Of a DNA stretch of 64,000 nucleotides, positions 12,367 to 54,153 are shown piece after piece; the stretch's first letter is position 1, and the number at the start of each line of letters is the position of its first letter. The position numbers were made by a program, and so were the translations under genes. The stretch covers positions 1 through 64,000 of the forward strand of contig NZ_JAFEUF010000002.1 in the NCBI RefSeq assembly GCF_016901035.1. The letters run 5' to 3'. The notes beneath the pieces were generated by a model. That model was not told where the DNA came from, did no database searches, and was given only the letters and a program-made list of their open reading frames with translations. This stretch comes from Streptomyces durocortorensis. Its GTDB lineage: Bacteria; Actinomycetota; Actinomycetes; Streptomycetales; Streptomycetaceae.

Positions 12367-13086
12367 ATGGGACCGATCGATGAACTTCTGGCGGCCGTGG
12401 CGCGGGGCAAGCGGGTGAAGTATCTGCCGTTCTGGGGGCACCGCCCGCGGCCCGACGGACGGACCGGTGCGAGGGCCTCCCTTGTGGACCGGGCCGGATC
12501 AGGGAGCGGGGTCCGGTGCGTGCAGCTGCAAGGCGGAGAAGGGAGTCAACGCGGAGCGTTGGTGACCGACGACAACGCCGCAGATGTGCGTGCCGGGGCC
12601 CGCGAGCCCGGCCCGGTCCACAAGGGAGGCCCTCACTGTCTGAGCCAGTGGTGGCCGTCGCCGTTCACGGTGGACGGGGTGACATATGCGAGCGCCGAGC
12701 ACTGGATGATGGCGGGCAAGGCGCGGCTCTTCGGCGATCCGGAGGCCGAGGCGGCGGCGGTGACGGCGAAGAGCCCGGCGGCGGCGAAGAAGGCGGGGCG
12801 CCTGGTGCGCGGCTTCGACGAGGACGTGTGGATACGGGAGCGGTTCGCCCTGGTGGTGGCGGGCAGCGTGCACAAGTTCGGGCAGGACCCGGAGCTGGGC
12901 GGCTATCTCCTGGGCACCGGGGAGCGGGTGCTGGTGGAGGCGTCCCCGCTGGACCGGATCTGGGGCATCGGGCTCGCGGCGGACGACGAGCGGGTGGAGC
13001 GGCCGCAGGAGTGGCGGGGGCTGAATCTGCTGGGCTTCGCGCTGATGGAGGCCCGGGAGAGGTTGCGGGCGGACGCGACGGGCTGA
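12367..13086 (+). CDS. NADAR-family protein with internal palindromic insertion
   Basis: NADAR (YbiA-like) domain protein of about 239 aa; proteins of this superfamily cleave N-glycosidic bonds in riboflavin intermediates or remove ADP-ribose. The start VKYLPFWGHRPRPDG, the central LSQWWPSPFTVDGVTYASAEHWMMAGKA and the end IWGIGLAADD are the family's conserved blocks. Between the first two lies an extra segment of about 55 residues (36-90) that the family normally lacks. It is encoded exactly by the 164-bp element at 12471-12634 and keeps the frame open. An alternative ATG is at 12349; neither has a clear ribosome site. Activity after insertion is uncertain. Confidence 0.75.
   Translation: MGPIDELLAAVARGKRVKYLPFWGHRPRPDGRTGARASLVDRAGSGSGVRCVQLQGGEGSQRGALVTDDNAADVRAGAREPGPVHKGGPHCLSQWWPSPFTVDGVTYASAEHWMMAGKARLFGDPEAEAAAVTAKSPAAAKKAGRLVRGFDEDVWIRERFALVVAGSVHKFGQDPELGGYLLGTGERVLVEASPLDRIWGIGLAADDERVERPQEWRGLNLLGFALMEARERLRADATG
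12471..12634. mobile_element. MITE-like element with 27-bp terminal inverted repeats
   Basis: A 164-bp segment bounded by perfect 27-bp inverted repeats (12471-12497 and 12608-12634; arms begin GAGGGCCTCCCTTGTGGACC). It is too short to encode a transposase. It interrupts the NADAR gene in frame, and because the ends are palindromic both strands read RASLVDRAG. No clear target-site duplication is visible, so exact ends are approximate. The structure fits a miniature inverted-repeat element moved by a transposase encoded elsewhere. Confidence 0.75.
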
Positions 13087-40962: not shown

Positions 40963-43350
40963 TCAAGTATCGCCTCGCCGCGCGTTGTCGTTGCGTACCG
41001 AAGGAGGCGTCAACCGCCAGCCGTCGCCTTCGCGTTCGACGAACCCCAGTGAGTGCAGTTCGTACAGTCGACCGAGCGTTTCGTCGGCGGAGGTCCCCGC
41101 GGTGCGGGCGAGGTCACGGGGATGGGTGACCCCGTGGTACGGAAGCGCGTCGAGGACCCGCGCGGTGACCGCGTCCAGGTGGTCCCTGGGCAGCACCGGG
41201 CCCCGGCGGACCGGCGGTAGGTCGCCCATGTCCCCGACCAGCTCGACCACTTCGTCCGCGTCGGTGACGAGGACGCCTTCTCCGCGCAACAGCTCGTGCA
41301 CCCCTGCCGAGAGCCCACTGGTGGCCGGCCCCGGGAGACCTGTGTCCGGAGCCACCGCCCCAGCTCCCGCATCGGCGTCAGTCAGGACGCGCGGGTCCAC
41401 CCGGCCCTCCACACGGAAGGGCGGCACCAGCGGCTGAACCCACAGAGGCTGGCCCTCGTTGGGCAGCGCCGACATGATCTGATCCCAGACGCCTTCGATG
41501 CGCCACCGCTTGTAGCGGCTGTGGATGCTCTTCCAGAGCCCGAACCGCTCGGGCAGGTCCTGCCAGCGGCACCCGGTGCGCGCCTTGTGGAACATTGCGT
41601 CGATCATCCGGCGACTCGGGATGAGTCGGCGGTTCGGGTGCTCCGGCTCCCACGCCTTCACGATCGGCTCGATCAGGGCCCACGCCTCGTCGGTCAGCTC
41701 GTCCGGCACGAGCCGCTCGCGCTCCTCGAACCACTCAGCCAGTGAGCACGACAGACCGATCTTCGGTTTGGGCACGGGCCCGGTGATGGTGACCCGCACA
41801 TCGAGCAATCCCAACACGTCAGCCTGCTCGGCCGGCGTCATGTCAGCGAGTCGAGTCCGCGCCATGGTGGCCAACGCTTCCAGGTCGCGCGCCCGCTGGG
41901 CGGTGGCCTTGGTCTCCTCCAGCCACTGGGCGGCCTCGTCTCGGATGTCGGTGAGTTGGCGTCGCTCCTCTATAAGGGCAGCGCTGGCAGCCGCGACGGC
42001 CGACGCCGGAAGCCCTGCCTTGGCGTACTCCTTGACCATGGTCGTGATGGCTCGGTCGAGGTCGGCGATTTGGCGGTCGAAGTCGGCGATGCGGTCGGCG
42101 TGCTGCACCTTGTCGCCCTCGGTCATGCCGACCCACTCAGCCGCCATCGCCCGCAAGCGGTGAGGGTCGCCCAGGAGGTTGACGACCTCGCCCCACACGG
42201 CCGACTCCATCGCGTCGGCATCGACCATCTTGCAGCCGCACACCGCGTCGCCCGGGTACTTCGCGGCCAGCCCGGTGCATCGGTACCAACGGCCACCCCG
42301 GCTCGTGCGAGCCATGCCGACATGGTGCGAGTTGCACCCGGTGTGCTCGTTGAACAGGCGCTTCGACAGCGGGTACGCCTGGGGCTGCGACTTCGGCTTG
42401 CCGTTCGCCAGCCGCCCCATGGCCGACTTGAGGGCGGCCACTTCCTCCGGCGTGAAGATGGGATCGAGCTTGATGATGACCGTCTCGCCGTTCAGCGGCT
42501 TGCCGTCGCGCCCGAACTTGGCACCGTGCCCAGCGCGCGTCCGGTTGGGGTTCCGGAAGATCACGCGGGCATTGAGCGTGGACTCGCTGAGAAGCTTGGC
42601 CCGTGCGTTCGTGGCCGACCACGGCACGCCCGACCTCGTGAGAAGACCCGTGACGTTGAGCCGCTCGGCCAGCTCGTTCGTGTTCATCCCGTCCTCGACC
42701 ACCAGCCCCCACATCGCCTTGAGGACGAGCACTTCGGCCTCGCACTGGACAAGGTGCGATTTGCCCTTCTGGCCCTTGCAGGCGATCTCATAGCCGTAAG
42801 GCGGCTGGCCACCCGTCCACCCCCCGTCCTCGGCCTTCTCCTGCAACCCGCCCTGGGTGCGCTTGCGAATGACCTCGTATTCGGTCTCGGCGTAGTCGGC
42901 GTCACGGCGCATCTTCTTGCGGCCCTCGGCCGTGCTGTTGTCGTAGTCGTCCTCTACTACGCCGACGAACACGCCGATGTCTTCGAGCGCCCAGACCCAC
43001 CGCCAGAACGCCCGGCCGACGCGACCGATGGCGCGACCCTCACTGACAACCACAATGTCGAAGGGGCGGGGCGTGCGGTGGGCGTCGGCCATCAGCCGCT
43101 TGAGGTCTTCGCGGTCGGCGGCCTCCAGCGACCCCGAGATGCCCTCGTCGGTGTACGTGCCGACGTGGTCCCAGTCCTTGCGCCCGATGTAGCGGGTGAT
43201 CTTCTTCAACGCCGACTGGACGCCGTAGCCCTTGGCCTGCTCCTCGGTCGAGACGCGGGCGTACGCGACCGCACGAAGTCTGACCGTGTGGGTGACGCGG
43301 TCAACGACGCCCATGGCGATGTCGAGGGCGTCCGTGTTTTTCTGGTTCAT
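40963..43350 (-). CDS. int: large serine integrase, with IS5-like domain, fused in frame to the DprA C-terminus
   Basis: A 795-residue chimera in the integrated state. Residues 25-170 are the serine-recombinase catalytic domain (YARVSTEEQ, Ser34). Next come the recombinase domain (about 185-300) and a zinc ribbon (CNSHH..YRC..CGC, about 345-390), then a coiled coil (about 420-500). Residues 553-635 (LTDEAWALIEPIV, ARTGCRWQDLPERFG) match the N-terminal domain of IS5-type transposases. After attL at 41333 the last 122 residues are DprA: PATSGLSAGVHELL and a winged helix. The ATG at 43350 has AAGGA upstream. Confidence 0.9.
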   Translation of the reverse strand: MNQKNTDALDIAMGVVDRVTHTVRLRAVAYARVSTEEQAKGYGVQSALKKITRYIGRKDWDHVGTYTDEGISGSLEAADREDLKRLMADAHRTPRPFDIVVVSEGRAIGRVGRAFWRWVWALEDIGVFVGVVEDDYDNSTAEGRKKMRRDADYAETEYEVIRKRTQGGLQEKAEDGGWTGGQPPYGYEIACKGQKGKSHLVQCEAEVLVLKAMWGLVVEDGMNTNELAERLNVTGLLTRSGVPWSATNARAKLLSESTLNARVIFRNPNRTRAGHGAKFGRDGKPLNGETVIIKLDPIFTPEEVAALKSAMGRLANGKPKSQPQAYPLSKRLFNEHTGCNSHHVGMARTSRGGRWYRCTGLAAKYPGDAVCGCKMVDADAMESAVWGEVVNLLGDPHRLRAMAAEWVGMTEGDKVQHADRIADFDRQIADLDRAITTMVKEYAKAGLPASAVAAASAALIEERRQLTDIRDEAAQWLEETKATAQRARDLEALATMARTRLADMTPAEQADVLGLLDVRVTITGPVPKPKIGLSCSLAEWFEERERLVPDELTDEAWALIEPIVKAWEPEHPNRRLIPSRRMIDAMFHKARTGCRWQDLPERFGLWKSIHSRYKRWRIEGVWDQIMSALPNEGQPLWVQPLVPPFRVEGRVDPRVLTDADAGAGAVAPDTGLPGPATSGLSAGVHELLRGEGVLVTDADEVVELVGDMGDLPPVRRGPVLPRDHLDAVTARVLDALPYHGVTHPRDLARTAGTSADETLGRLYELHSLGFVEREGDGWRLTPPSVRNDNARRGDT
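41333..41334. other. attL core (element / dprA 3' part)
   Basis: The junction lies in the proline codon of GLP|GPATSG. To its left DprA sequence is continuous with the family (GPATSGLSAGVHELL). To its right is the integrase tail. Comparison with attR leaves only the dinucleotide GG (CC on the minus strand) shared in register, which fits the 2-bp crossover of large serine integrases. Confidence 0.8.
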
Positions 43351-43415
43351 GCTGGCGATTCCTTGTCTCAGCATTCAGGCCCGGCCGGGGGTGCCACCCC
43401 GGCCGGGCTCGTTCG

Positions 43416-47982: not shown

Positions 47983-48260
47983 GTGCCAGGTGTGCCATAC
48001 GTGCCATATGGCGTGCGCACCGTGGTTCCGTCGCCCCGGAGCGCGCGCCCTCCTATGAGAACCAAGTACGCCGCACGAGATATGGCACGTATGGCACGCA
48101 GGGGCCTGCACCCCCTCTGGCCGGGGATGCCGTCCTCTCGCGCAGGCTCTCTCCATATGGCACGAGATATGGCACGAGATATGGCACGCCGGGGTTACAC
48201 ATATGGCACGCGGCTGCAACGTCGGCGCGGGGGTGGCCGCGTGCCATATGTGGTGTGCCA
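47983..48260. repeat. iteron-like array of TGGCAC/GTGCCA repeats
   Basis: Eleven copies of TGGCAC or its complement lie within 278 bp, at 47983, 47992, 48001, 48083, 48092, 48158, 48170, 48182, 48204, 48241 and 48255. Most are extended to ATATGGCACG. Three form an exact 12-bp tandem series (CGAGATATGGCA), and two groups have 9-bp spacing. It lies immediately downstream of the prim-pol replication gene. Likely an origin with initiator sites, or a regulator/partition array. Confidence 0.7.
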
Positions 48261-54123: not shown

Positions 54124-54153
54124 GAGGCCCCCGGAGATATCTCCGGGGGCCTC
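54124..54153. terminator. perfect 30-bp palindromic terminator at element end
   Basis: GAGGCCCCCGGAGAT is followed directly by its reverse complement. It lies between the last element gene and the tail shared by the interrupted dprA, and can stop transcription from both sides. Confidence 0.8.

Follow-up and report, generated by a model that had tools for sequence, protein, structure and literature searches.

The 64,000 nucleotides of Streptomyces durocortorensis DNA analysed here (the window) contain, within a NADAR-domain gene, a palindromic insertion which is very probably a copy of a non-autonomous IS5-type MITE with a conserved structured nucleic acid, most likely RNA, at its centre. The assignment to the IS5-type MITEs is made because copies are dispersed, sites without the element can be recovered, the target is CTAG and the ends match those of an autonomous IS5 element in another genome. 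A broader reading, to which we give roughly even chances, is that the core represents a class-wide family of structured RNA carried as cargo by miniature IS5-type elements, which would repeatedly exchange their terminal repeats, keep the fold and land on TAG stop codons as the 3' end of many genes. The candidate RNA fold in this broader reading is a long hairpin interrupted by a two-sided internal loop, CAAGGCGGAGGA.../...GACGACAACGC.

Table 1. Positions in the window of the NADAR gene, the inserted element and its parts
Feature	Position	Strand	Details
NADAR-domain gene carrying the insert	12367..13086	+	239 aa, no internal stop; PF08719, E 1.1e-48
Target tetranucleotide CGAG, left end	12470..12473		Empty site in relatives GGCGCGAG joined to CTGTCTGAG; the family usually targets CTAG
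Left terminal inverted repeat arm	12471..12497	+	Family arm CTAGGG(C/T)CTTTCGTTTGGATCAGGCCGG
Net inserted DNA	12474..12635	+	162 bp = 54 codons, reading frame kept; the two flanks adjoin in G005 and other relatives
Structured core, 103 nt	12504..12606	+	Covariance-model match 112.9 bits, E 7.8e-23
Internal-loop module, 5' side	12529..12545	+	Family consensus CAAGGCGGAGGAGGGAG; window copy GGCGGAGAA
Internal-loop module, 3' side	12564..12578	+	GACCGACGACAACGC
Right terminal inverted repeat arm	12608..12634	-	Pairs with the left arm
Right flank CTCA	12632..12635		CTC is the complement of the left GAG; not a direct duplication of CGAG

The insertion in the NADAR gene

The perfect 27-bp terminal repeats described in an earlier note on this DNA were borne out, the two arms being 100% complementary with 110 nt between them; the chance expectation for such a pair of arms in the 64-kb window, calculated from composition, is approximately 4e-8. 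The palindrome spans 164 bp without a transposase gene and thus has the short length and terminal inverted repeats of a MITE. Folded as RNA, its plus strand has a predicted energy of -126.9 kcal/mol (z -11.3). When the gene was searched against its relatives, the match broke exactly at the element; the extra DNA was apparent by comparison with G005 (91% identical), in which query positions 1-114 and 277-713 are contiguous, and in homologues the empty site reads GGCGCGAG followed directly by CTGTCTGAGCCAG. The insert is in frame and free of stops as the earlier note had it, although its size of 164 bp, or about 55 residues, has to be corrected to a net 162 bp and 54 codons.

The 54 added codons separate two invariant blocks of the protein, FWGH and CLSQWWP, and in a NADAR homologue whose structure is known (8bau) the same loop differs in length. 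In models of the protein with and without the insert, the insert itself is disordered and the adjoining N-terminal strand is of low confidence in both. Among the approximately 150 conserved NADAR sites listed, G000, the genome of the window, alone carried sequence of the insert type. The dN/dS of the gene against G005 is 0.24, a value which pools the time before and after the insertion. The flanks, CGAG...CTCA, contain no visible direct target duplication. An independent family copy (L091:1580-1745; 48 bits, E 8e-9) was found in the NADAR gene of another Streptomyces, G025, only 10 bp from the site in the window; it has a net length of 166 bp, is frameshifted and contains a stop. Two insertions of one family in a single short stretch of NADAR suggest either a target preference or a dispensable gene.

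Copies, ends and the link to IS5

Family DNA was detected in 152 of 199 Streptomyces genomes and on 34 Streptomyces plasmids, and no match was found in phages. In the genome of the window the same DNA was found three times by BLAST, at unrelated sites, and seven copies were found by covariance model. Together with the uninterrupted relatives, which lack the residues that would have been common to all homologues of an ancestral segment, these dispersed copies uphold the earlier note's description of a mobile palindrome inserted in the NADAR gene. Full-length copies are approximately 166 or 190 bp, with ends of the form CTAGGG(C/T)CT(T/G)TC....GATCA, and the arms pair near-perfectly while being highly variable and strongly co-varying.

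Dispersed copies with empty orthologous sites, as expected of a MITE, were recovered with the targets CTAG (L041), TCAG (L046), GAAG/GTAG (L035) and CGAG/CAAG (L052). CTAG...CTAG flanks occur in 40 of 108 copies, and CTAG is itself palindromic. The flanking tetranucleotides were inverted-only in four cases versus direct-only in one, and closer to inverted in 15 versus closer to direct in nine, neither difference being significant; the counts are too small for the inverted flanks to prove hairpin correction, and that argument was rejected. No recurrent partner gene was found near the core in 108 loci beyond common paralogues. Further tiny palindromes with ends AGGGCCTGTCCGGCGGATCAGGGTCGG (L133, L138, L142, L143, L151 and others) are apparently other short IS5-type elements of Streptomyces.

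Streptomyces IS5-family elements have the same kind of ends as the repeat family. In G090, a two-frame IS5 transposase (NF033580, PF13340, PF01609) lies between ends CTAGGGCCTGTCCGACGGATCATG, which are 23/24 identical to the arms of the core-bearing copies L213, L232, L247 and L261. A transposase with the same ends, which the earlier note proposed should be sought, therefore exists for these sister copies, which share their ends with an autonomous element in the manner of MITEs. For the window copy, no autonomous element with its own ends was found in its genome, a draft. In G446, which belongs to another family, different CTAG sites are occupied by at least seven copies that are near-identical and agree in their ends and cores; the same genome has elements of 86-93 bp (L440, L446, L450) in which the core is absent and the ends are as in the core-bearing copies.

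The mechanism we propose is that an IS5-family DDE transposase, acting in trans, would cut and join the palindromic arms as the ends of the element at CTAG-like (NNAG) sites. The NADAR copy would have entered an off-consensus CGAG site inside the gene, where the reading frame may have survived by chance, since element plus target duplication would come to 162 bp and, as a rule, one of the frames is open.

A conserved core within different arms

The 103-nt core is better conserved than the arms, and it appears within very different ones: the IS5-like CTAGGGCCTGTC, TAGACCGACCGGCAATTGG, TAGGGCGTGTCTGACAATTCG in Kitasatospora, TTTAGAGGTCGCGCGGG in a Pseudonocardiaceae genome, and others. To find one core in such different arms is unusual for a MITE. 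A pattern scan located the core in Streptomyces, Kitasatospora, Actinacidiphila, Pseudonocardia and Microtetraspora, and the covariance model located it in 56 of 198 genomes of the class Actinomycetes, representing 19 of 90 genera, with some genomes containing at least 20 copies. Neither Streptomyces nor divergent members matched a family among the Rfam 15 covariance models, a chance match to mir-249 lying far below its gathering score, and no description of the family was found in the open-access literature searched. The core is possibly a new structured-RNA family.

In 27 diverse Streptomyces copies 96.8% of the cells in the alignment pair, and double changes fill 100 cells versus 27 in shuffles. 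Across genera, 44 distinct copies have double changes at 29 of 35 pairs, amounting to 345 cells versus 112, a number reached in none of 500 shuffles; this alignment was fitted to the covariance model and so leans towards it, although slid controls collapse. Compensatory base changes therefore exceed the controls, as expected of a structured RNA. The internal loops CAAGGCGGAGGA and GACGACAACGC are near-invariant across genera and the stems change. On the plus strand, G-U exceeds A-C by 191 to 6 in the 44 cross-genus copies and by 486 to 21 in 113 Streptomyces copies, the latter partly owing to four fixed wobble pairs, and the reverse complement of the core folds far worse (-18.4 versus -42.7 kcal/mol). 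Because near-invariant loops, changing stems, covariation and the G-U excess are what would be predicted of it, the core appears to be under selection as a folded plus-strand molecule, most likely RNA, or else one strand of DNA.

The question of which molecule is folded is best considered against two alternatives. A MITE that acts as DNA throughout might owe its palindrome, and an apparent covariation, to quasipalindrome correction, in which a hairpin serves as template during replication, and have no RNA function at all. The arms are near-perfect and yet very variable, as such correction would make them, repair of palindromes by strand switching could yield some covariation in the arms, and some flanks are inverted complements rather than direct repeats, including CGAG...CTC in NADAR, although the counts are not significant. 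Correction of this kind could thus lie behind the perfect arms and the inverted-looking flank at the NADAR site. However, it would not preserve the same unpaired loops across some ten families, and it would maintain neither conserved wobble pairs nor, on one strand, G-U in a 32:1 excess over A-C; we consider this reading unlikely. Slightly less likely still is that one of the two DNA strands, folded while single-stranded, is the working form of the core, for instance in transposition. Hairpins of DNA also tolerate G-T wobbles, and the orientation of copies relative to host genes is unbiased (32:30), both of which this explanation would accommodate; against it, elements without the core but with the same ends exist, and IS5-type DDE transposition is not known to require a folded single strand.

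Insertion at stop codons and the coding hypothesis

The tetranucleotide CTAG is rare, with 282 occurrences in 907 kb of these genomes versus 2291 expected from composition. In copies with CTAG on both sides, the TAG is the stop codon of an adjacent gene in 56 of 93, compared with 28 of 145 CTAG sites taken as background (odds ratio 6.3, p 1.7e-10); the test used a simple GC3/GC2 coding score made for this analysis and treated copies as independent. The family normally ends at gene ends, and the NADAR copy is an exception. In this family it is the landing on TAG stops, and not an open frame, that makes insertion harmless: CTAG is rare in these high-GC genomes, and the inserted element keeps the stop codon.

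Several individual placements were also observed. The C289 copy in the genome of the window begins on the TAG stop codon of a gene (...PGGSTRA*). Also in the window's own genome, a divergent family member, L427 (G000 C241:28134-28238), separates two genes that resemble gap (GAPDH) and pgk. A copy between genes resembling cysD (...KREGYF*) and cysN (MTTTAEQLSATTLL...) was found in two species (L210 and L223 in G127 and G171), and is therefore an old shared insertion within an operon.

The earlier note had suggested that the element is adapted to insert harmlessly into genes, which does not agree with copies that lie overwhelmingly outside genes and with only one frame of six being usually open. 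Both strands do encode RASLVDRAG at the ends of the element, but on the minus strand the frame concerned contains a stop. Three of the six frames of the window's element are open, close to the number expected from composition (P about 0.38 per frame). A protein-coding palindromic element adapted to in-frame insertion, similar to those of Rickettsia, could draw on the net 162 bp of open, in-frame sequence in NADAR, on the 190-bp copies, which would add 186 bp and so also a multiple of three, and on the frame read in NADAR, which is open in 54 of 74 copies where a random 54-codon frame of the same composition would be open 38% of the time. However, the other five frames are open in only 10-27 of 74, near or below chance, copies are placed on stop codons, and many are 191 or 167 bp long, so that insertion in a gene would shift the frame, as indeed is seen in the second NADAR gene. 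Moreover, among the approximately 116 copies examined, none of the approximately 115 others was found in frame within a gene, although the filter used was strict and misses the NADAR copy itself, which has a short upstream coding part. An adaptation to coding insertion is thus very improbable. More improbable again, to the point of being hardly credible, is an ancestral origin of the 54 residues or a functional role for them within NADAR: the segment is absent from homologues, whose empty sites refute this reading, the same DNA is found at unrelated sites and the insert is disordered in the structure model.

Comparison with known repeats

MITEs usually carry decaying filler; the core described here stands out by its conservation throughout a bacterial class and its covariation of the grade seen in RNA. 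The Streptomyces family resembles IS5-family (IS427-like, DUF4096 two-frame transposase) MITEs in being short and non-coding, with IS5-matching terminal inverted repeats, a CTAG target and many dispersed copies, and differs from them in its structured core, conserved class-wide within many different arms. The mode of working is best read as that of a known IS5 MITE, and the new part as the conserved, arm-swapping structured core spread across a class.

REP/BIME sequences are palindromic extragenic repeats near gene ends, mobilised by RAYT proteins; the Streptomyces family is likewise palindromic and near gene ends, but is much longer and has IS5-like ends and a CTAG target. BOX, ERIC and RUP repeats are intergenic and palindromic and can form stable RNA structures, BOX being modular. 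The Streptomyces family shares with them its intergenic palindromes, whereas its hosts are others, it has no Rfam match, and it alone has the conserved internal loops and the swapping of arms. BOX, ERIC and RUP are among the bacterial repeats listed in PMC10969869, and Rickettsia palindromic elements (RPE) are palindromes of approximately 150 bp that recurrently insert in frame in ORFs (PMC10969869). The window copy is a palindrome of similar length, likewise in frame within a gene; in contrast to the recurrent ORF insertion of RPE, the Streptomyces family avoids genes and favours stop codons.

If the core is RNA, it would constitute a mobile family of non-coding RNA across many antibiotic producers, often at the 3' ends of host genes, and this raises the testable question of why a transposon would keep a structured RNA.

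Elsewhere in the window, an 803-aa open frame (40963-43374, minus strand) reads as a large serine recombinase joined in frame to the N-terminal domain of an IS5-type transposase (DUF4096 at 41473-41697); a broken copy of IS5 seems to lie at the 3' end of an integrase gene. The window also contains further perfect inverted repeats of 18 bp or more, at 47992-48097, 25557, 38041 and 54124-54150, which are possibly terminators or small elements.
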